DNA from: Comamonas sp.
GTDB lineage: Bacteria > Pseudomonadota > Gammaproteobacteria > Burkholderiales > Burkholderiaceae_C
NCBI GenBank assembly: GCA_021166775.1
Contig: JAJPEQ010000013.1
Span: forward strand, 62,001 to 126,000
Reading direction: 5' to 3'
Length of the DNA: 64,000 bases
Shown here: positions 42,877 to 53,933 of the stretch, piece by piece
Layout: every line of letters begins with the position of its first letter
How positions within the stretch are numbered: the first letter of the stretch is position 1
The notes under the pieces: generated by a model
Told to the model about the DNA's origin: nothing
The model's database searches: none
Seen by the model: only the letters and a program-made list of their open reading frames with translations
Program-made: the position numbers and the translations under genes

Positions 42877-44355
42877 TCAGTGCGCGCTCGATTGCAGGCT
42901 GGCGGCCTGGGGGTCGTCCTTGGCGCCGTTGAAGAAGAGATTGAGCGCCACGGCGGCGATCGAGGCGAGCAGGATGCCCGATTCGATCAGCGGGTGGATG
43001 GCGTGCGGCATCCATTGGCGGAAGTTGGGCGCCACCAGCGGAATCATGCCGACGCCGATGGAGATGGCGACGATGATGGCGTTGTTGCGGTTGTTGTGGA
43101 AGTCCACGCCAGCGAGGATGCGGATGCCGGTGGCCGCGACCATGCCGAACATCACCAGGCCCGCGCCGCCGAGCACCACCGTGGGCAGCGACTCGACCAG
43201 CGCCCCCATTTTGGGCACGATGCCGAACAGGATCATGATGGCGCCGCCGGCCACGCACACCCAGCGGCTCTTGATGCCGGTGACCGCCACCAGGCCGACG
43301 TTCTGCGAGAAGCTGGTGTATGGGAAGGTGCTGAACAGGCCGCCGATCACCGTGCCCAGGCCATCGGTGCGCAGGCCGCGCTTGAGGTCGTCGGGTGTGA
43401 TTTCCTTGCCGGTCATCTCGCCCAGCGCGAGGAACATGCCGGTCGATTCGATCAGCACCACGATCATCACCAGCGACATCGTGAGGATGAGGATGGGGTC
43501 GAACACCGGGTAGGCGATCTGAAATGGCAGCACCAGATCAAACCAGGAGGCCTTGCCCACTTTCTCGAAGGTCATCAGCCCCATGGCCGCGGTGATGACG
43601 CCGCCCACGATGATGCCCACGAGTACCGAGATGTTGGCGAGAAAGCCCCTGCCGAAGCGCGCGACGAACAGGATGGTGAGCAGCACGACGGCCGAGATGC
43701 CCATGCCCGTGAGGTCGGCGTACTTGGGATTCGGCATCGTGGGCAGGATGGCCAGGCCCTTGGGCACGGGTGGCAATGATGAGCCTGGTGCGCTGACGGC
43801 GGCCTGCAGCTCGGAGAGCCACTTGATGTATTCGGGGTTGGTCACCGAGGGGGCGGTGGGGCCGACGGGGTTGCCGAAGATCCAGTTGATGCCGATGCGC
43901 ATCAGGCTGATGCCGATGACCGCGATGATGGTGCCCGTGACCACGGGCGGAAAGAAGCGAAGCATGCGGCTCATGAGTGGCGCGATGAGGATGGCGACGA
44001 CGCCCGCGCCAATGACCGAACCGAAGATGAGGCCGGCCCCGTAGGGTCCGCCGTTGGACTGCGCCATCGAGACCATGGGCGCGACGGCCGCGAAGGTCAC
44101 GCCCATCATCACCGGCAGCTTGATGCCGAACCACTGCGTGAGGCCACCGGCCTGGATCATCGTGACCAGGCCGCAGACGAAGAGATCGGCCGAGATGAGG
44201 TGCGCCACCTGCTCGGGCGTGAGGTTGAGCGCGCGCCCGACGATGAGCGGCACCGCCACGGCGCCCGCGTACATCACGAGCACGTGCTGCATCCCCAGGG
44301 TGATCATGTGGCCCCAGGAGAGTTTTTCATCTACCGGATGGACGGGTTTTTGCAT
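42877..44355 (-). CDS. NCS2-family xanthine/urate permease
   Basis: Nucleobase:cation symporter-2 of 492 residues, with about 12-14 membrane segments. The family motif is QNVGLVAVTG (Q-N-x-G-x4-T-G), the version seen in xanthine and urate carriers rather than uracil carriers. Start ATG 44355 has AGGAG upstream. A predicted purine-regulator site (44389-44404) lies 34 bases before the start. Together with the purine genes upstream on the same strand this supports import of xanthine or urate. Confidence 0.88.
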   Translation of the reverse strand: MQKPVHPVDEKLSWGHMITLGMQHVLVMYAGAVAVPLIVGRALNLTPEQVAHLISADLFVCGLVTMIQAGGLTQWFGIKLPVMMGVTFAAVAPMVSMAQSNGGPYGAGLIFGSVIGAGVVAILIAPLMSRMLRFFPPVVTGTIIAVIGISLMRIGINWIFGNPVGPTAPSVTNPEYIKWLSELQAAVSAPGSSLPPVPKGLAILPTMPNPKYADLTGMGISAVVLLTILFVARFGRGFLANISVLVGIIVGGVITAAMGLMTFEKVGKASWFDLVLPFQIAYPVFDPILILTMSLVMIVVLIESTGMFLALGEMTGKEITPDDLKRGLRTDGLGTVIGGLFSTFPYTSFSQNVGLVAVTGIKSRWVCVAGGAIMILFGIVPKMGALVESLPTVVLGGAGLVMFGMVAATGIRILAGVDFHNNRNNAIIVAISIGVGMIPLVAPNFRQWMPHAIHPLIESGILLASIAAVALNLFFNGAKDDPQAASLQSSAH

Positions 44356-44388: not shown

Positions 44389-44404
44389 AAAGTGTATACA
44401 AAAT
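44389..44404. promoter_or_regulatory. Predicted GntR operator before the permease gene
   Basis: AAAGTGTATACAAAAT, 13 of 16 identical to the perfect palindrome AAAGTGTATACACTTT at 51341-51356, with the TGTATACA core intact. Confidence 0.75.
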
Positions 44405-44429
44405 TGGTGGTATAAATACTATGGGATAC

Positions 44430-44451
44430 ACGGGGTTGACATGAACCCCGT
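44430..44451. terminator. Palindrome after the M20 hydrolase gene
   Basis: ACGGGGTT / AACCCCGT, perfect 8-bp stem with a 6-base loop, 16 bases past the M20 gene stop (44467). There is no T run on the minus strand; TTTTC follows on the plus strand. It may end the upstream operon before the permease's own promoter. Confidence 0.45.
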
Positions 44452-44466
44452 TTTCAAATAGCGGTC

Positions 44467-45726
44467 TTACTGCGCCATCAGATCGCACAGGCTGCGCGCG
44501 ACGACCTTGGTGGCGCGGCGCAGGTCTTCCAGGTCGATGCGCTCGTCATTGCGCTTGGCGTGGCTCTCCAGCACGGTGCGCGGGCCGGCGCCGTAGATCA
44601 CGCCGGGTATGCCGCGTTCGACGTACAGGCGCACGTCGGTGTACAGCGGCGTGCCCACGGCGGGCGGCTTTTCACCAAACACGGCCTCGCCGTGCTTTTG
44701 CAGTGTGTCGACCAAGGGGGCGTTGCCCTTGAGCGGCGTCATCGCATGGGCCAGCAGGATGCGGCGCACGTCGGTGGTGACGGCCTGCTCGCCCTTCACG
44801 CCGCGCCAGCGGTTGAAGTGCCGGGTGGCATCCGCGATCACCTTGCGCAGGCGCGCCTCGACCCTGGCGGGATTTTCCTCGGGGATCATGCGGCGGTCGA
44901 GCTTGAGCACGACCTTGCCGGGGATCACGTTGGTGTTGGTGCCGCCTTCGATGCGGCCGATGTTCAGGTAGGGGTGGTCGATGCCCTTCACCCTGGAGCT
45001 CACCTCTTGGTAGGCGGTGTTCTCGGCATAGAGTGCGTTCATGATGAAGACCGCCGCTTGCAGGGCGTCCACGCCCGTGTGCGGCACGGCGGCGTGCGCC
45101 ATCCTGCCGTTGACGGTGACTTCCAGCTGCAGGCAGCCGTTGTGCGCGGTGACGACTTCATACGAAAAACCGGCGGCGATCATCAGGTCGGGCTTGGTGA
45201 GGCCCTGGGAAAGCAGCCAACCCGGGCCGAGCAGGCCGCCGAATTCCTCATCGTAGGTGAAGTGCAGTTCGATGGTGCCCTTGGCGGGCCGGGCCACGGC
45301 TTCGAGCGCGCGCACCGCGAAGCTGAAGGTGGAGAAGTCGCACTTGCTCACCGCGGCGGCGCGGCCGTAGAGCTTGCCGCCCTCGATCTCGGCGCCGTAG
45401 GGGGCGTGCTGCCAACCTTCGCCCGGCGGCACCACATCGCCATGGGCGTTGAGCGCGAGCGTGAGGCCGCCCTTGCCGTAGGGGCGGCGCACGATGAGGT
45501 TGGTGATGGACTGCATGCCGTAGGCCTTCACCTCGGCGTCGGGCACCGGGTGCTTCTCGGCCTCGAAGCCGAAGGCGCGGATGAGTTCGGCGGCGCGCTC
45601 CGCGTGCGGCGCGTTGTTGCCGGGCGGCGTGTCGGTGGGCACGCGCACCAGTTCCTGCAGAAAGCGTACCTGTTCGTCGAAGTGCTGGTCGATCCAGGCG
45701 TCGAGTTGTTCGTAGGTTGTGGTCAT
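44467..45726 (-). CDS. M20-family metallohydrolase in the purine operon
   Basis: A 419-residue ArgE/DapE-like hydrolase. Zinc-binding sites are visible in LNAHGDVVPPGEGW (HxD), YDEEFGG and the C-terminal ESHAKRNDERI; the dimerisation domain carries NGRMAHAAVPHTGVDAL. It starts 10 bases after the uraD-allC stop, so it is part of the gntR-puuE-uraD/allC operon. That position suggests an amide substrate from allantoin breakdown, such as a ureido compound, but the sequence alone does not give it. Confidence 0.85.
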   Translation of the reverse strand: MTTTYEQLDAWIDQHFDEQVRFLQELVRVPTDTPPGNNAPHAERAAELIRAFGFEAEKHPVPDAEVKAYGMQSITNLIVRRPYGKGGLTLALNAHGDVVPPGEGWQHAPYGAEIEGGKLYGRAAAVSKCDFSTFSFAVRALEAVARPAKGTIELHFTYDEEFGGLLGPGWLLSQGLTKPDLMIAAGFSYEVVTAHNGCLQLEVTVNGRMAHAAVPHTGVDALQAAVFIMNALYAENTAYQEVSSRVKGIDHPYLNIGRIEGGTNTNVIPGKVVLKLDRRMIPEENPARVEARLRKVIADATRHFNRWRGVKGEQAVTTDVRRILLAHAMTPLKGNAPLVDTLQKHGEAVFGEKPPAVGTPLYTDVRLYVERGIPGVIYGAGPRTVLESHAKRNDERIDLEDLRRATKVVARSLCDLMAQ

Positions 45727-45736
45727 GGTCTGGGTT

Positions 45737-47503
45737 TTAATGGGCGAGTTGGTTTAGCACGTGGCTGTAGGCGAGCACGGCCAGCTGCAGGTCGTCGGCC
45801 GTGGTGGATTCGAGCGGGTTGTGGCTGATGCCGCTGTTTTCGCCGCGCACGAAGAGCATGGCCTGTGGCAGCATCTGATGGATCTTCATCGCGTCGTGCC
45901 CGGCGCCGCTGGGCATGCGGTGCACGGGCAGGCCCAGCGCCTGCACCGCCGCTTCCCAGCGCGCCTGCAAGACCGGGTTGCTGGGGGCGGCGCTCGCCTG
46001 CATGCTGCGTTCGGCCACGTACTGCAGGCCGCGGCGCTGGCAGACGTCGTCCAGGCGCTGCAGGATGTCGGCCACGAGGGCATCGCGCTGGGCGTTGCCG
46101 GGGGCGCGCAGGTCCAGGCTGAATTCGCAGCGCCCCGGCACCACGTTGACCGAACCGCTGGGCACGCTGAGCATGCCCATGGTGGCCACGCTGTCGCCAT
46201 CGCGGGCGGCGCGCTCTTCCATGTACAGCAGCAGTTCGGCGGCGGCGGCGGCGGCGTCGCGGCGGTGGTTCATGGGCGTGGTGCCGGCGTGGCTCGCCAT
46301 GCCGGTGATCGCGCACAAGTAGCGGCTGCTGGCGTTGATGCTGGTGACCACGCCCAGCGGCAGGCCCATCTCGTTGAGCACCGGGCCCTGTTCGATGTGC
46401 ACTTCGATGTAGCCCAGGTACCGGGCCGGATCGCGCTTGAGCCTGGGGATGTCGGCGATGCACAGGCCCGCGTGCTCCATCGCGGCGCGCAGGGTGATGC
46501 CATCGGCGTCCTCCTGATCCAGCCAGCTTGGGTCGAAATCGCCCACGAGCGCGCCCGAGCCGAGGAAGGTGGCCTTGTATCGCTGGCCTTCTTCTTCGGC
46601 GAAGGCGACGAGCTCGATGCCGAAGGGCAGGCGGCGCCCCGCGCGGTGCAGCTCGCGCACGCAGGCCAGCGGCACAAAGATGCCGGTGCGGCCGTCGTAC
46701 TTGCCGCCGTTCCTCACGGTGTCGTAATGGCTGCCGGTCAGCAGGTATTTGCCGTCCTCGGCAGCGGGTTTGTAGCGGCCCACGACGTTGCCCACGGCGT
46801 CGATCTCGACTTCGTCGAAGCCGCTCTCGCGCATCCAGTGGCTGATGCGTTGCGCGCAGGCGCGGTGCGCGTCGGTCAGGTAGGTGACGGTGAGCTGGCC
46901 GCGTTCGGCATAGCCCGCGTCGCTGTGCTGCGCCAGACGCTCGTGCCAGTCCCAGACATCGTTGCCCAGCAGCGGCTCGGCGCCGAATTTCTCGTTCAGA
47001 CGGATTTCCGCGATGCGGTGGATGTTGCGCAGCGCCTCGGCACGCTCGAACTCCGGGTGGTTGGCCAGGCGCCGCGCAAACGTGTCGATGATCTGCTGCT
47101 TGCTCAACCCCGTGCCGCGCGGGCCGCGCACCGCCAGGATGAAGGGAAAGCCGAAGCGCGCGTTGTAGTCGTGGTTCAGTTGCTGGATGCGGGCGAATTC
47201 GTCGGGGGTGCAGCTCGTCAGGCCCGCCCGGTTTTGCTCGTTCGTTGATTCGGCCGTGAGGGTCTTGGCCACCATCGCCTTGCCCGCGAGCTCGGGGTGG
47301 GCGCGGATGAGCTTCAGCTGCGCGTCCGTGCCCGCTGCCTCCAGCGCCTGCACCATGGCGTATTTGAGCTGCGCCAGCGTGGCGAACGGGCGGTGCGCAA
47401 GGGCTGCCTCGGCGATCCAGGGGGAATGCTCGTAAATGCCGTCCAGCAGCAGCGTGGCCTGCGCCAGCGGTGCCGCGTTGAGTTGTTCCAGCGTCAAGGG
47501 CAT
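45737..47503 (-). CDS. Fused OHCU decarboxylase (UraD) and allantoate amidohydrolase (AllC)
   Basis: A 588-residue bifunctional protein. Residues 1-~170 are UraD: H69 in RAHPELAG, the SxxEQ motif STNEQ and NARFGFPFI, turning OHCU into S-allantoin. Residues ~180-588 are an M20 allantoate amidohydrolase: GSHYDTVRNGGKYDG, AFAEEEGQRY, EVHIEQGPVL and SGAGHDAMKI. The two halves act on either side of the allantoinase step, which PuuE, encoded just upstream, should supply. A dispersed repeat separates it from puuE. Confidence 0.93.
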   Translation of the reverse strand: MPLTLEQLNAAPLAQATLLLDGIYEHSPWIAEAALAHRPFATLAQLKYAMVQALEAAGTDAQLKLIRAHPELAGKAMVAKTLTAESTNEQNRAGLTSCTPDEFARIQQLNHDYNARFGFPFILAVRGPRGTGLSKQQIIDTFARRLANHPEFERAEALRNIHRIAEIRLNEKFGAEPLLGNDVWDWHERLAQHSDAGYAERGQLTVTYLTDAHRACAQRISHWMRESGFDEVEIDAVGNVVGRYKPAAEDGKYLLTGSHYDTVRNGGKYDGRTGIFVPLACVRELHRAGRRLPFGIELVAFAEEEGQRYKATFLGSGALVGDFDPSWLDQEDADGITLRAAMEHAGLCIADIPRLKRDPARYLGYIEVHIEQGPVLNEMGLPLGVVTSINASSRYLCAITGMASHAGTTPMNHRRDAAAAAAELLLYMEERAARDGDSVATMGMLSVPSGSVNVVPGRCEFSLDLRAPGNAQRDALVADILQRLDDVCQRRGLQYVAERSMQASAAPSNPVLQARWEAAVQALGLPVHRMPSGAGHDAMKIHQMLPQAMLFVRGENSGISHNPLESTTADDLQLAVLAYSHVLNQLAH

Positions 47504-47512
47504 GGGATTCCT

Positions 47513-47572
47513 ATTAAATAAATAGCTGATTGCGCTTGATTGGCAAGCGTCTCAGCCCGATTTGGCTTGAAT
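47513..47572 (-). repeat. Dispersed repeat copy between puuE and uraD-allC
   Basis: AAATAGCTGATTGCGCTTGA with GGCAAGCGTCTCAGCC, reverse orientation relative to the 20456 copy. It lies inside the purine operon, so if it terminates transcription it would reduce downstream expression. Confidence 0.65.
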
Positions 47573-47574
47573 CT

Positions 47575-48543
47575 TCAGACCGGCGCGGGAAACTGCCTGG
47601 CCCAGTGGCGCGCCAGGTCGATGCGGCGGCACACCCACACCTGGTCGTGGCGCGCGATGTGGTCCAGGAACTTCTGCAGCGCGATGAAGCGCCCCGGACG
47701 CCCCACCATGCGGCAGTGCAGGCCGATGGTCATCATCTTGGGTGCGTTCAGGCCCTGGGGGTCGCCCTCGGCGTAGAGCACGTCAAACGCATCGCGCATG
47801 TACTGGAAGAAGGGGTCGGCGTGCGAATAGCCCTGCGGCAGGCCGAAGCGCATGTCGTTCACGTCGAGCGTGTAGGGCACGACGAGCTGCTGGTGTGCGG
47901 AACCGTCGGTCTTGGCGACTTTCATCCAGAACGGCAGGTCGTCGCCGTAGTAGTCGGCGTCGTAGGTAAAACGCCCGGTGTCGGCGACCAGCCGATGAGT
48001 GTTGGGGCTGTCGCGCCCGGTGTACCAGCCCAGCGCGTGGTCGCCGTGGCTGCCGTAGAGCTGCTCGAAGATGTCCAGGCACTGCTGCATGTGCGCGCGC
48101 TCCAGGTCTTCGGGCATGTCCTGGTAGTGAATCCAGCGCAGGCCGTGGCAGGCGACTTCGTGGCCGAGCTCGTCGAAGGCTTGGGCTACTTCGCGGTTTT
48201 TTTGCAGTGCGGTGGCGACGCCGTAGACCGTGAGCGGGAGCTTGCGGCGTTCAAACTCGCGCAGTACACGCCAGACCCCGGCGCGCGAGCCGTACTCGTA
48301 GATGCTCTCCATGCTCATGTGCCGCGCGGGGTAGGCCGCCGGGTTGAAGAGCTCGGAGAGGAACTGCTCGCTGCCCGCGTCGCCGTGCAGCACGCAGTTC
48401 TCGCCGCCTTCTTCGTAGTTCAGCACGAACTGCACGGCGATGCGTGCCTGGCCCGGCCAGTGCGGATGCGGCGTGGTGCGGCCGTAGCCGGCCAGGTCGC
48501 GTGGGTAGGGGGCGGTGGCGTCGTAAAAAGCGGTGGGGGTCAT
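47575..48543 (-). CDS. puuE: Allantoinase PuuE (polysaccharide-deacetylase family)
   Basis: Metal-independent allantoinase that opens allantoin to allantoate. The 322-residue protein has the family's NodB-like fold: QFVLNYEEGGENCVLHGD, HMSMESIYEYGSRAGVWR, HEVACHGLRWIHYQDM and GWYTGRDSPNTHRLV. ATG 48543 overlaps the gntR stop as ATGA, so the regulator and this enzyme are coupled. The open frame extends far upstream across gntR but that part has no similarity to the family. Confidence 0.94.
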   Translation of the reverse strand: MTPTAFYDATAPYPRDLAGYGRTTPHPHWPGQARIAVQFVLNYEEGGENCVLHGDAGSEQFLSELFNPAAYPARHMSMESIYEYGSRAGVWRVLREFERRKLPLTVYGVATALQKNREVAQAFDELGHEVACHGLRWIHYQDMPEDLERAHMQQCLDIFEQLYGSHGDHALGWYTGRDSPNTHRLVADTGRFTYDADYYGDDLPFWMKVAKTDGSAHQQLVVPYTLDVNDMRFGLPQGYSHADPFFQYMRDAFDVLYAEGDPQGLNAPKMMTIGLHCRMVGRPGRFIALQKFLDHIARHDQVWVCRRIDLARHWARQFPAPV

Positions 48544-49223
48544 GCGTTGCTGGCCGTGAGAGCCATGGACAGGTCGTTGGAGGGAACGTCGCGGTCGAAC
48601 ATCAGCCCGGCCTCCACGTTGTCGAGGTGCTCCTGCATCAGGCGTACCGCGCTCGCCTCGTCGCCGGCGACGAGGGCGTTGAAGATGCCTTCGTGCTCTT
48701 CGTGCGAATGCCCCGCCGCGGTGCTCGTCTGATACATCAGCGTGATCAGCGCACAGCGCGAGATGAGCTCGCCCAGCATCTGCGCCAGCACCTCGTTGCC
48801 CATGAGCTGCGCGATGCGCACGTGAAAGTCGCCCAGCAGCTCGGTGCGCAGGCTTACGTTCTGGCCCAGCATGGCCTTGCGCTCGGCCTCCATGTGCTTC
48901 TTCAGCGCCCGGATCTTGGCGGGCGTGCTTGCTGCGACGAAGGCGCGCACGGTGGCGATTTCCAGCATGCGGCGCACGGCGAAGACCTGGCGCGCTTCCT
49001 CGACCGAGGGCGTGGCCACGAAGGCTCCGCGCGCAGGTTCGAGCCGGATCAGCCGGTTTTGCGAGAGCTGGAACAGCGCCTGCCGTACCAGCGTGCGCGA
49101 GACGCCGAAGTGGTCGGCCAGTTTCTGCTCGGCCAGCTTGGTGCCGGGCAGCAGCCGGTGCTCGACGACGGCCCGGGTCAGGCTCTCGACAATGACTTCG
49201 GTGGTGGAGGCGGGTGTGTCCAT
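48540..49223 (-). CDS. GntR/FCD transcriptional regulator of purine catabolism (predicted)
   Basis: A 227-residue regulator. The N-terminal winged helix has LLPGTKLAEQKLADHFGVSRTLVRQAL. The C-terminal FCD ligand domain follows (RRMLEIATVRAFVAA, then HVRIAQLMGNEVL and the metal/ligand region SHEEHEGIFNALVAGDE). ATG 49223 is preferred; ATG 49232 is also possible. A near-palindrome (49251-49266) lies 18-27 bases upstream, and matching sites lie before three other purine genes, so it probably represses its own operon and the others. The ligand may be urate or a breakdown product. Confidence 0.88.
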   Translation of the reverse strand: MDTPASTTEVIVESLTRAVVEHRLLPGTKLAEQKLADHFGVSRTLVRQALFQLSQNRLIRLEPARGAFVATPSVEEARQVFAVRRMLEIATVRAFVAASTPAKIRALKKHMEAERKAMLGQNVSLRTELLGDFHVRIAQLMGNEVLAQMLGELISRCALITLMYQTSTAAGHSHEEHEGIFNALVAGDEASAVRLMQEHLDNVEAGLMFDRDVPSNDLSMALTASNA

Positions 49224-49250
49224 GCCGGCCATGATACAACGCGGACACAA

Positions 49251-49266
49251 AAATTGCATACACTTT
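49251..49266. promoter_or_regulatory. Predicted GntR operator before gntR-puuE operon
   Basis: AAATTGCATACACTTT matches the perfect site at 51341-51356 in 14 of 16 positions. It implies autoregulation. Confidence 0.75.
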
Positions 49267-49341
49267 TTGTCGACGATCGCACTCATCCCCGCCGAAGCGG
49301 TCCGTGGGCGGGAGGCTGGGGCGCTTTGCGGGCGCTCGTGC

Positions 49342-51111
49342 TCAGTACCCGAGCGTGCGCCCGTCCGGATTGCGCGGGTCGGATGCGCCGTACAGCAGGC
49401 CGTCGCGCACCTGGATGGTCTGCGTGCGACCCATCACCGGCTTGACCACGATCCTGTGTCCCTTGACCTGGAGCAGGTCCAGCGTGTCCCGGGACAGGCC
49501 TTTTTCCACGCGCAGCTCGTCGGGCGTCCACTGGTGGTGAAAGCGCAGCGTCGCGGCGGCCTCGGCCGGGTTCATCTGAAAGTCGATCATGTCCACCAGC
49601 GTTTCGAGCACCGTGGTGATGATGCGCGGCCCGCCAGGGCTGCCGGTGACGATGGCGATCCTGCCGTCCTTGAGCGCGAGGGTGGGCGTCATCGACGACA
49701 GCGGGCGCTTGCCGGCCTGCACCGCGTTGGCGTCCCCGCCCACCAGGCCGTAGGCATTGGCCACGCCGGGCTTGGCGGCGAAGTCGTCCATCTCGTTGTT
49801 CAGCAGGATGCCCGTGCCCTGCGCGACGATGCCGCTGCCGAAGTTCGTATTCAGCGTGTAGGTGACGGCCACGGCGTTGCCCGCCGCATCGACCACGGAA
49901 AAGTGCGTGGTCTGGTCGCTTTCGTAGGCCTGAGGCTGGCCCGGCCTGATCTCGCTGGCCGGGCGGGCGCGATGGGCATCGATGCTCGCGGCGAGACGAT
50001 CGGCATAGCGCTTGCTGATCAGGCCATGGAGCGGCACCTTGACGAAATCCGGATCGCCCAGGTACTCGGCGCGGTCGGCGTAGGCGAGCTTCATGGCCTC
50101 GGTCATGTGGTGGATGGTGGCGGCGCTGTTCACGCCCCATTGCCGGATCGGCCAGCGCTCGATGATGTTGAGCATCTGCACCAGATGCGCGCCACCCGAA
50201 GAGGGCGGCGGCATGGTCACGATGTCGTAGCCACGGTAGCTGCCGCGCACCGGTTCGCGCTCCATCACCTTGTAGTCCTTCAGGTCCGCGAGCGTGATGG
50301 CCCCCGCGTGCGGCGCCATTTCGGCGGCGATTTTCCGGGCTATCGCGCCCTCGTAAAACGCCTGGGCGCCTTCGCGCCCGATCAGGCGCAGCGACGCGGC
50401 CAGGTCCTTTTGCACCAACAGGTCGCCCGCCTGCATCGGCGCGCCATTCTTGAAGAAAATCGCCTGGCTCGCGGGCCAGGGGGCGAGGGTCTTTTTCCCG
50501 TGCGCGAGCGCCTGGGCCAGCGTCTCGCTCACGGCAAAGCCGTGTTCGGCCAGGCGGGCGGCGGGCTCGACCACCCGGGCCAGCGGCAGCGTGCCCCAGT
50601 GTTGCAGTGCGTGTGTCAGGCCCGCCACCGTGCCGGGCACGCCCACCGCGTAGTGCGTGAACAGCGACTTGCCGCTGATGACCTTGCCGTTCGCGTCCAG
50701 GTACATGCTGCGGTGCGCGCCGCTGGGCGCCATTTCGCGGAAGTCCAGCGCCACATCGCGGCCGGTCCTGGCGTCGTGCACCATCATGAAGCCGCCACCG
50801 CCGAGGTTGCCTGCATTGGGCAGCGCCACGGCCAGCGCGAAACCCACGGCGACGGCGGCATCGACTGCATTGCCGCCGCTCTCGAGGATGTCCAGGCCGA
50901 TGCGCGTGGCCAGCGCCTGTTCGCTCGCGACCATGCCATGGTGCGCCACCACCGGGTGGAACACGTCCATGTCATAGTCATAGGCGGCAGCAGCCTGCTG
51001 GGCAGCGCTGGTTTGCTGGGGCGCGGCAGTCGGCGCGACGGAGCTCGTTGTGCAGCCACCCAACAGGGCCAACGACAGGCAAACAGTCAACAAGGTGGGG
51101 CGCAGGAGCAT
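49342..51111 (-). CDS. ggt: Gamma-glutamyltransferase, lipoprotein form
   Basis: Cleaves gamma-glutamyl bonds of glutathione and related compounds outside the cytoplasm. The 589-residue precursor has a lipobox LLGGC (Cys20), whereas E. coli Ggt is soluble in the periplasm. The large subunit contains GNLGGGGFMMVHD and PPPSSGGAHLVQMLN. Self-cleavage should occur before T401 in DQTTHFSVVD, giving the small subunit with PLSSMTPT. It lies between gntR and uraH but has no palindrome directly before it, so membership in the purine regulon is uncertain. Confidence 0.93.
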   Translation of the reverse strand: MLLRPTLLTVCLSLALLGGCTTSSVAPTAAPQQTSAAQQAAAAYDYDMDVFHPVVAHHGMVASEQALATRIGLDILESGGNAVDAAVAVGFALAVALPNAGNLGGGGFMMVHDARTGRDVALDFREMAPSGAHRSMYLDANGKVISGKSLFTHYAVGVPGTVAGLTHALQHWGTLPLARVVEPAARLAEHGFAVSETLAQALAHGKKTLAPWPASQAIFFKNGAPMQAGDLLVQKDLAASLRLIGREGAQAFYEGAIARKIAAEMAPHAGAITLADLKDYKVMEREPVRGSYRGYDIVTMPPPSSGGAHLVQMLNIIERWPIRQWGVNSAATIHHMTEAMKLAYADRAEYLGDPDFVKVPLHGLISKRYADRLAASIDAHRARPASEIRPGQPQAYESDQTTHFSVVDAAGNAVAVTYTLNTNFGSGIVAQGTGILLNNEMDDFAAKPGVANAYGLVGGDANAVQAGKRPLSSMTPTLALKDGRIAIVTGSPGGPRIITTVLETLVDMIDFQMNPAEAAATLRFHHQWTPDELRVEKGLSRDTLDLLQVKGHRIVVKPVMGRTQTIQVRDGLLYGASDPRNPDGRTLGY

Positions 51112-51340
51112 GAAGACCTCGCGGAAGGTGGGAGCTGACCGAGCTTAAGGCAATGCGAAGCAAGTCCCTCGCGCGCGCCGCATCCCTGCCTGGGGCGGTC
51201 GGCGGCGCGGCCAATGCCCGCCATGGCCGCGGCCATGGCTGCGCTTGGCGTCTTGCCTTCCTGTCCCATTCAGTGCGCGCGGCATCGCGCAGGCTTGTTC
51301 AGTGCCGTCTTGACCAGGATCGGGGCTTGAAAGCGTACAA

Positions 51341-51356
51341 AAAGTGTATACACTTT
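51341..51356. promoter_or_regulatory. Predicted GntR operator before uraH-xdhC (perfect palindrome)
   Basis: AAAGTGTATACACTTT is a perfect 16-bp palindrome, 30 bases before uraH. It overlaps a possible -10 (TACACT) paired with TTGAAA at 51327-51332. Confidence 0.8.
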
Positions 51357-51386
51357 CATCTATTGCAATTCACGGGAGACCGCATC

Positions 51387-51737
51387 ATGGGCCTGAGTAC
51401 CCACGTTCTGGACACGATGCATGGCTGTCCGGCTGCCGGCATGCGGGTGTCACTCTACGCGACCGAGGGCGAGAAGGCCACGCTCATCAAGAGCCTGACG
51501 CTCAACCACGACGGCCGCACCGATGCGCCGCTGTTTGACAACGCGAGCCTGCGCGTGGGCACCTACCGCCTCACTTTTGACGTGGCGGCCTATTTCAAGG
51601 CCAGGGGCGTGGTGCTGCCAGAGCCCAACTTTCTGAACCGCGTGAGCCTGGATTTCGGCATTGCGCAGGTGGACCAGCACTACCACGTCCCGCTGCTGGT
51701 GAGTCCCTGGAGCTACTCCACCTACCGCGGCTCGTGA
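51387..51737 (+). CDS. uraH: 5-hydroxyisourate hydrolase (transthyretin-like)
   Basis: Hydrolyses 5-hydroxyisourate, the product of urate oxidation, to OHCU. The 116-residue protein begins [18 protein letters not shown] and ends STYRGS, the C-terminal YRGS mark of HIU hydrolases. GRTDAPLF and [13 protein letters not shown] complete the active site. No signal peptide is present, so it is cytoplasmic. It is first in a pair with xdhC, 13 bases apart. Confidence 0.96.
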
Positions 51738-51750
51738 GCGGCCACGCGCG

Positions 51751-52596
51751 ATGCTGACCCCCCTGGAGCAGTTGCTCGTGGCCCTGGACGCGGGCCCGGT
51801 GTGCCTCGTGACGGTGCAGGAGGCCAAGGGCTCGACCCCGCGCGAGGAGGGGGCCTGGATGGCGATCGCGCTGGCCGCGCCCGAGGTGCTGATCGGCTCG
51901 ATAGGCGGCGGACATCTCGAATGGCAGGCCATGCGCGAGGCGCATGAGCGGCTCAAGGCCTGCGCGGCGGGCGCCGTGGACACGACCGTGGCCGAACCCG
52001 TGGTGCGCAAGGCACTGGGGCCGAGCCTGGGGCAGTGCTGCGGCGGCGTGGTCTCGCTGCGCTTCGAATGTCTGGGGCCGCGGGACGCGGCCGGGGTGCG
52101 CGCGCGCCTGGCACCGCCGCTGCACAAGCTGGCGCTCTTTGGCGGCGGGCACGTGGGGCGGGCGCTGGTGCGGGTGCTTGAGCCGCTGCCCTTTGCGATT
52201 CGCTGGATCGACAGCCGGGACGAGATTTTCCCGGCCGGCTTGTCGAGCAAGGTCGAGTGCGAGCATTCCGACCCGGTGCAGGGTGCCGTGGCCGATCTCG
52301 CGCCCGGCTCCATGGTGCTGATCATGAGCTTCAGCCACGCCGAGGACCAAGACATCGTGGCCGAATGCCTCAAGCGCCAGCGCAGGCACGCCGACCTGCC
52401 CTTCATCGGCCTGATCGGCAGCAAGACCAAGTGGGCGACCTTTCGCCATCGGCTGGAGGCACGCGGCTTTGGCGAGGATGATTTTGCGCGCATCACCTGC
52501 CCGATCGGGGTGCCAGGCATCGTCGGCAAGGACCCGGAGGTGATCGCCGTGGCGGTGGCGGCGCAGTTGCTGATGCGGGTCGGCCCGCTGACGTAG
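51751..52596 (+). CDS. xdhC: Xanthine dehydrogenase accessory protein XdhC
   Basis: Binds molybdenum cofactor, promotes its sulfuration and inserts it into xanthine dehydrogenase. The 281-residue protein has VTVQEAKGSTPREEGAWM, GSIGGGHLEWQA, LGQCCGGVV and a Rossmann part LALFGGGHVGRALV, then GLIGSKTKWATFRHRL. The enzyme subunits XdhA and XdhB are not in the window, so this gene is separated from its target and grouped with uraH instead. Confidence 0.94.
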   Translation: MLTPLEQLLVALDAGPVCLVTVQEAKGSTPREEGAWMAIALAAPEVLIGSIGGGHLEWQAMREAHERLKACAAGAVDTTVAEPVVRKALGPSLGQCCGGVVSLRFECLGPRDAAGVRARLAPPLHKLALFGGGHVGRALVRVLEPLPFAIRWIDSRDEIFPAGLSSKVECEHSDPVQGAVADLAPGSMVLIMSFSHAEDQDIVAECLKRQRRHADLPFIGLIGSKTKWATFRHRLEARGFGEDDFARITCPIGVPGIVGKDPEVIAVAVAAQLLMRVGPLT

Positions 52597-52602
52597 CAAC
52601 CA

Positions 52603-52618
52603 AAAGTGCATACAATTT
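52603..52618. promoter_or_regulatory. Predicted GntR operator before puuD
   Basis: AAAGTGCATACAATTT, 13 of 16 identical to the site at 51341-51356. It lies 112 bases before the puuD start, just past the xdhC stop. A further half-like sequence (TGTCTACAAAT) follows. Confidence 0.7.
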
Positions 52619-52730
52619 ATGTCTACAAATCGGGTCGTAGCGGTGCCGAAGTATCTTCCAGCTTCGAGCGCGGCCCATCAATGTCTGCTCAGAGCGCCCG
52701 CCGTGGTGAGCAGCTGGAGACTTGAACACC

Positions 52731-53933
52731 ATGGAAGCTTATCTTCTGGACTGGGCCAACCTGCTGCTGCGCTGGTTGCACGTGATCACGGCGATCGCCT
52801 GGGTCGGTTCCTCGTTTTATTTTGTCTTTCTCGACAGCAGCCTCACGCCACCGGTCGATGACAAGCTGCGCCAGGATGGCGCCACCGGTGAGCTCTGGGC
52901 CGTGCACGGCGGCGGGTTCTACCACCCGGTCAAGTACAACGTCTCGCCGCCCAGGCTGCCCGATCATCTGCACTGGTTCTTCTGGGAGAGCTACACCACC
53001 TGGCTCTCGGGCTTCGCGCTGCTGAGCAGCTCCTATCTGTGGAATGCCGGCGTCTATCTCGTCAATCCGGCCAACCCGCTGATGTCGCCCGGCGTGGCGG
53101 TGGTGGCGGCGCTGGCCTTTCTGGCGGTGTTCTGGGTGCTGTACGACCTGATCTGCCGCATCTGGGGGCAGAAGGAGCATGGCGACGCCATCGTGGGCGC
53201 GCTGGTCATGGGGCTCGTGTGCATCGCGGCGTATCTGGCCTGCCGCATCTTTCCGGGGCAGGCGGCCTTCCTGCTCATGGGCGCGATGCTCGCCACCGCG
53301 ATGAGTGCCAACGTGCTGTTCTGGATCATCCCCGGCCAGCGCAAGGTGGTCGCCGCGCTCAAGGCGGGCCAGCCCGTCGATCCCATCCACGGCAAGCGCG
53401 GCAAGCAGCGCAGTGTGCACAACACCTATTTCACGCTGCCCGTGGTCTTTGCCATGCTCTCCACGCACTACGGCTGGATGAACACGCATGCGCTCAACTG
53501 GCTGGTGCTCATCCTCATGATGTTCGCCGGCGCGGCGATCCGCCAGTTCTTCGTGCTGCGCCACGGCTACAAGCTCGGGCGCAACCGCCATCCCTGGCCG
53601 TATGCGGTGGTGGGCATCGTGGTGCTGCTCGGGCTCGTCGCCTGGCTCAAACCCGCGCCGCAGGCGGTGAGCAGTTTGAACGAGCCGGTGAAGTTCGCCG
53701 ACCTGCACGCCGTCATGAAGGAGCACTGCTTCATGTGCCACAGCGAGGCGACCATCCAGCAAAAGGGCGTGAAGTTCGACACCGCCGAGGACGTCAAGGC
53801 CCACGCGCAGCAGATCTACCAGCAGGTGGTGCAGCTGCGCAAGATGCCCTTCGGCAACCCCGACGCGCTCACGCCCGCGCAGGTGAACATGTTCAAGCGC
53901 TGGTACGAGGGCGGCGCCCACGTTGATCGTTGA
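52731..53933 (+). CDS. puuD: Membrane urate hydroxylase PuuD with cytochrome c domain
   Basis: Oxidises urate to 5-hydroxyisourate at the membrane. The 400-residue protein has about eight membrane segments beginning LLRWLHVITAIAWVGSSFYFVFLD. The C-terminal ~90 residues form a cytochrome c domain with the heme site CFMCH, which implies electrons pass to the respiratory chain rather than straight to oxygen. ATG 52731 is chosen (MEAYLLDW); a TTG nine bases earlier is in frame. Urate is passed on to UraH. Confidence 0.93.
   Translation: MEAYLLDWANLLLRWLHVITAIAWVGSSFYFVFLDSSLTPPVDDKLRQDGATGELWAVHGGGFYHPVKYNVSPPRLPDHLHWFFWESYTTWLSGFALLSSSYLWNAGVYLVNPANPLMSPGVAVVAALAFLAVFWVLYDLICRIWGQKEHGDAIVGALVMGLVCIAAYLACRIFPGQAAFLLMGAMLATAMSANVLFWIIPGQRKVVAALKAGQPVDPIHGKRGKQRSVHNTYFTLPVVFAMLSTHYGWMNTHALNWLVLILMMFAGAAIRQFFVLRHGYKLGRNRHPWPYAVVGIVVLLGLVAWLKPAPQAVSSLNEPVKFADLHAVMKEHCFMCHSEATIQQKGVKFDTAEDVKAHAQQIYQQVVQLRKMPFGNPDALTPAQVNMFKRWYEGGAHVDR

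Follow-up and report, generated by a model that had tools for sequence, protein, structure and literature searches.

UgmR (PA1520) of Pseudomonas aeruginosa, for which Xu et al. 2022 is said to be the original study, is one of the described regulators with which the present system can be compared. In the passages of PMC12694930 that concern it, this GntR-family protein is reported to bind before and repress genes of the allantoin pathway, to respond to uric acid, which relieves the repression, and not to allantoin, and also to control gcl (glyoxylate). HpxS of Klebsiella pneumoniae, likewise a GntR-family protein, is linked to allantoinase and guanine deaminase genes by a title cited in PMC4609117, which counts it with the regulators that either activate or both repress and activate. 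The relevant part of PMC4494728 assigns HpxS to the FadR subfamily with a 2-nt GT-AC spacing and describes the operators of this subfamily as palindromes with GT...AC boxes 2–3 nt apart. The same source reports additional boxes at 7–12 nt, and its regulons, including that of HpxS, were deposited in RegPrecise.

Here we describe a purine catabolism cluster of Comamonas sp., found in a window of 64 kb (the whole stretch of DNA that was analysed). We propose that purine (urate) catabolism is repressed locally by P0001, an FCD-type GntR protein encoded within the cluster (48540–49223). A P0001 dimer would bind a palindrome centred on TGTATACA at four promoters, those of pbuX, gntR-puuE-uraD/allC-M20, uraH-xdhC and puuD, so that P0001 would also repress its own operon. 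A metabolite of the urate pathway, most likely urate, would free it from DNA when purines are available. We infer operon limits, binding, repression, autoregulation and ligand from sequence, and to the regulon of four promoters with P0001 as its regulator we assign a probability of about 0.85. UgmR and P0001 are both GntR-family proteins of the urate/allantoin pathway, with repression reported for UgmR and predicted for P0001. As described, HpxS resembles the P0001 system in its family, its FadR subfamily and its 2-nt GT-AC spacing. An FCD/GntR switch for purine catabolism is of a kind already known, and the regulon here is a new case; none of the literature matches listed reports it in Comamonadaceae, and it may already be in RegPrecise.

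The gene cluster and its palindromes

On the minus strand gntR, the presumed repressor gene (48540–49223; PF00392 and PF07729 above the Pfam cut-off), is followed by puuE for allantoinase (47575–48543; TIGR03212 above the NCBIfam cut-off), a uraD/allC fusion of an OHCU decarboxylase and an M20 amidohydrolase domain (45737–47503; PF09349 and PF01546 above cut-off, NF010373 just under) and, as the last gene of the presumed gntR operon, that for an M20 deacylase (44467–45726; TIGR01910 just under cut-off). The same strand carries pbuX for a xanthine/NCS2 permease (42877–44352; TIGR03173 above the NCBIfam cut-off). On the plus strand lie uraH for hydroxyisourate hydrolase (51387–51737; TIGR02962) and xdhC for the xanthine dehydrogenase accessory protein (51751–52596; TIGR02964), both above the NCBIfam cut-off, and puuD for the membrane-type urate oxidase (52722–53933; PF06181 above the Pfam cut-off). 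A gamma-glutamyltransferase gene (ggt, 49342–51111) separates gntR from uraH, yet both genes retain a strong site. An in-frame ATG at 49232, 9 nt upstream of the annotated gntR start (M-A-G-M-D), may be the true start. The M20 deacylase, which is above no NCBIfam cut-off among the 25 families listed and whose gene is matched in 73 of the 80 relative loci described below, is a candidate for a ureide step after allantoate.

The perfect palindrome AAAGTGTATACACTTT stands before uraH (51341–51356) and, allowing up to 3 mismatches, has four matches in the window, all given here on the plus strand. The other three candidate operator copies are AAAGTGTATACAAAAT before pbuX (44389–44404; 3 mismatches), AAATTGCATACACTTT before gntR (49251–49266; 2 mismatches) and AAAGTGCATACAATTT before puuD (52603–52618; 2 mismatches). 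With a PWM built from 32 distinct sites of relatives (maximum score 33.9), the uraH site scores 33.9, those of gntR and puuD 27.9 each and that of pbuX 22.9; the next best position in the window scores 4.5. In 100 shuffles of the window that preserved dinucleotides, the mean number of matches was 0.01 and the maximum 1. Scanning the genome (2,897,671 bases in 13 contigs, 95% complete) at the same threshold returned the same four matches and none beyond the cluster, and AAAGTGTATACACTTT read backwards matched once in the same sequence. The four copies and the gene assignments of the earlier note, the latter checked with NCBIfam and Pfam, were thus borne out, and the whole-genome scan gave no unrelated hits.

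The distance from site centre to start codon is 44.5 nt for pbuX, 35.5 for gntR, 38.5 for uraH and 111.5 for puuD. Promoter-like pairs were found twice in the 8.5 kb scanned, with 0.6 expected, and both are at sites: one at 51327–51354 overlaps the uraH site and one at 52588–52616 the puuD site. Because the sites lie 35–112 nt before start codons and two overlap promoter-like sequences, P0001 would presumably act as a repressor. We also considered a sigma-70 promoter in a constant position around the sites. In the relatives, a −35-like peak at an offset that would bring the −10 element within the site ranks second for uraH and pbuX, and neither gntR nor puuD shows one.

Each window site has one flank reading CACTTTT[T/G]GT. 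We considered a third half-site, TTGT, centred 10 nt from the site middle and thus within the 7–12 nt range given for additional boxes in the relevant part of PMC4494728; when 122 sites were pooled and read on both strands, 31 of the 244 readings had it, and it was rejected as too weak.

Conservation of the sites in relatives

Relatives were taken from a scan of named genomes as the best 80 of 476 loci by P0001, with which their regulators are 70–97% identical; most belong to Comamonadaceae genera. Genes were counted where the upstream region was whole and the match started within the first 40 residues. Across these 80 loci a motif copy with no more than 3 mismatches is located upstream of uraH in 70 of 72 cases, of gntR in 62 of 78, of puuD in 47 of 57 and of pbuX in 14 of 29. 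For ggt the count is 4 of 4, the copy lying in the gap common to ggt and uraH. No copy precedes the internal genes of the presumed operons (puuE 0/79, uraD/allC 0/75, M20 0/73, xdhC 0/57) or the neighbouring maeB (0/26). Altogether 135 of the 141 motif copies in these loci are upstream of a labelled cluster gene; when 40 permuted palindromes were scored in the same loci, the average was 0.55 (largest 10, next 6).

Three of the six remaining copies (L035:10119, L057:18849 and L072:17305) lie before NMT1/THI5-like substrate-binding ORFs, and another (L046:19735) precedes a PF02133 purine/allantoin-type permease; the ORFs behind these four copies are possible purine or ureide uptake genes. The copies in L012 and L015 have 3 mismatches and an interrupted core and are probably chance matches.

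In 59 of the 80 loci gntR and uraH are divergent neighbours, and in all but one of these (58) the 300 nt upstream of gntR contain a copy with at most 3 mismatches; uraH is absent from 8 loci. Of the 13 loci where gntR stands apart from uraH, 3 have a gntR copy with up to 3 mismatches and 8 have one with 4–5, a best match of the latter quality occurring in 23 of 1500 random 300-nt windows. The small number of gntR copies in such loci suggests that autoregulation may not be universal.

Limits of the proposed regulon

In this genome contig 1 (L159) carries xdhA, xdhB and guaD as a group, in which genes for a LysR protein and a PF00860 permease separate xdhB from guaD. The earlier note had suggested further sites before xdhAB or a guanine deaminase gene; the 19.5 kb of this region hold no site-like sequence, the best PWM score there being 0.6 against 22.9–33.9 for the four sites. 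We therefore rejected an extension of the regulon to xdhAB and guaD in this genome. The LysR-type protein encoded between xdhB and guaD (L159:11649–12617) may regulate the upper part of the purine pathway. Among the relative loci seven have an xdhA match, and in two of these (L025 and L068) xdhAB lies downstream of uraH on the same strand, before puuD, so that the uraH site could serve xdhAB there.

In Comamonas sp. the regulon would thus comprise urate oxidase and the subsequent steps, together with the permease and XdhC. This differs from HpxS, which is linked to a guanine deaminase gene, guaD being outside the regulon here, and from UgmR, which is also tied to gcl, the Comamonas sp. motif being confined to the cluster at up to 3 mismatches. 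The note's main claim of a purine catabolism regulon is strongly supported within these limits: the sites precede the same genes in relatives, are restricted to the cluster in the genome and, as described below, co-occur with the regulator.

The regulator and its presumed ligand

The metal site of FCD proteins consists of an Asp and three His and binds carboxylates, and some FCD proteins bind no metal. P0001 carries a GntR winged helix and an FCD domain by Pfam, which places it in the FadR/FCD subfamily of GntR regulators; among the matches listed it is above no curated NCBIfam cut-off. Its structure model (mean pLDDT 85, pTM 0.72) matches solved GntR/FCD proteins in a fold search. A Brucella GntR protein (7u5q) and PmiR (7xp0/7xp1) are its best-scoring solved FCD/GntR relatives by sequence and are also among the best fold matches, with 27–30% identity in the fold alignment. 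Residues D132, H134, H177 and H199 are invariant across 35 aligned sequences. At L130, nearly invariant as Leu, the aligned 7u5q has an Asp, four residues before the first His, a position which we take to be that of the metal-ligand Asp of FCD sites. PmiR, going by the title of the cited work, senses 2-methylisocitrate.

These residues bear on the strongest alternative, in which the sites and P0001 are correctly paired and either the ligand is allantoin, allantoate, HIU or OHCU, or P0001 is an activator. We regard this as a serious contender, somewhat short of even odds. The invariant H134, H177 and H199 would fit a carboxylate-binding FCD metal site, but with Leu at the presumed Asp position a canonical metal site is doubtful. 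HpxS, as one of the activators or repressor/activators of PMC4609117, offers a precedent for activation. UgmR, from the same pathway, answers to uric acid and not to allantoin in the account of PMC12694930, which argues against this alternative.

Returning to urate as the signal, we consider it the best guess since uric acid is reported to relieve repression by UgmR, a GntR protein that acts on the same pathway (PMC12694930, in the part concerned), and by this analogy give it an even chance of being the P0001 ligand. Together with UgmR, the limits of the regulon in this genome would favour urate, or an intermediate further down the pathway, over xanthine.

Pairing of motif and regulator

We examined 120 genomes drawn evenly from the family of the window, counting the motif at up to 2 mismatches and a P0001 orthologue at E ≤1e-58, a threshold chosen after a gap in the scores was visible. 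The motif was found in 78 genomes and the orthologue in 83: both occur in 71, the regulator without the motif in 12, the motif without the regulator in 7 and neither in 30 (Fisher p 2.5e-12, a value that ignores kinship). Thus 71 of 83 regulator-bearing genomes have the motif compared to 7 of 37 without the regulator. The backwards control pattern occurs in 13 of the 120 genomes and is not associated with the regulator (p 0.34). The most matches of the 16-mer in any of the 120 genomes, six at up to 2 mismatches, are in G029.

We inspected three of the seven genomes with the motif and no detected orthologue. In G056 a regulator 45% identical to P0001 is found at the site. G019 (L163:3330–3420) has uraH, puuE and the site but nothing matching gntR between them, and here the operator would have been kept and the regulator lost or placed elsewhere. 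G092 likewise has the site along with puuD and uraH, and the 10 kb read there gave no match to gntR.

Related cores are also found in other families. The core of the site matrix, TGTATACA (GT-AT-AC), has GT...AC boxes at 2-nt spacing, the distance that the part of PMC4494728 concerned gives for HpxS and for certain other members of the FadR subfamily. We read 11–20 kb at each of seven of 28 puuE loci from other families, chosen partly for cores or a GntR neighbour. In four of the seven (L166, L167, L168 and L170) TGTATACA lies shortly before gntR, puuE, uraH or puuD, and in two it is at other positions, in L171 inside puuE; L165 has no copy in the stretch read. Base composition alone predicts 0.03–0.27 copies per locus. 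The regulators beside these cores belong to other clades than P0001, so the core alone does not identify the binder. Use of this core thus seems to be common among regulators of this sort and does not prove a common descent of the regulon.

It is improbable that another FCD regulator of the genome binds the sites in place of P0001. FCD regulators of several clades do occur near TGTATACA cores, and seven of the 120 genomes have the motif with no detected orthologue, the locus L163 having uraH, site and puuE with no gntR match. Against this, the motif co-occurs with the P0001 orthologue, P0001 is encoded within the cluster, and a UgmR-like query at E ≤1e-15 matches one further protein here besides P0001, 28% identical. 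Taken genome by genome, the best match to the UgmR-like query is the purine regulator in G000 and G088 and another FCD protein in G069 and G044. Palindromes due to chance or composition can be dismissed, given the shuffles, the restriction of genome matches to the cluster, the conservation before the same genes and the co-occurrence with the regulator.

We also built a tree of 57 FCD-type proteins, keeping 7 of 10 UgmR-like rows after three identical to others were dropped; PA1520 is absent from it. The UgmR-like label rests on neighbours (an xdhA, guaD or permease gene) and for L115 on kinship. The purine regulators of Comamonadaceae group together (99/88), and the UgmR-like proteins, from two other families, make up a separate clade (97/85); a single clade of the P0001 line with the UgmR-like proteins was rejected (p-AU 0.0129). 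The UgmR-like protein of L168, a locus whose gene order presumably resembles that of the P. aeruginosa UgmR cluster, is 36% identical to P0001. Treating L113, L114, L115, L117, L119 and L123 as paralogues was dropped in favour of the UgmR-like label, five of the six adjoining an xdhA, guaD or permease gene and the short L115 locus having none of these. A P0001 relative is present in 477 plasmid records, and in a single one of them, a 1.2 Mb Variovorax replicon, it exceeds 60% identity.

The UgmR-like proteins, a class set mainly by gene neighbours, thus fall in another clade than P0001 (p-AU 0.013). We tentatively raise the possibility, which we hold to be rather less than probable, that the FCD regulator of the urate pathway in Comamonadaceae was recruited there separately from the UgmR line of pseudomonads, both lines using TGTATACA-centred operators in front of the same genes.

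Implications

The cluster would provide a compact, testable regulon for uric acid breakdown in a large bacterial family, and a likely target set for an FCD regulator that has so far matched no curated NCBIfam family above cut-off among those listed. In relatives, the same motif points to transporter genes.
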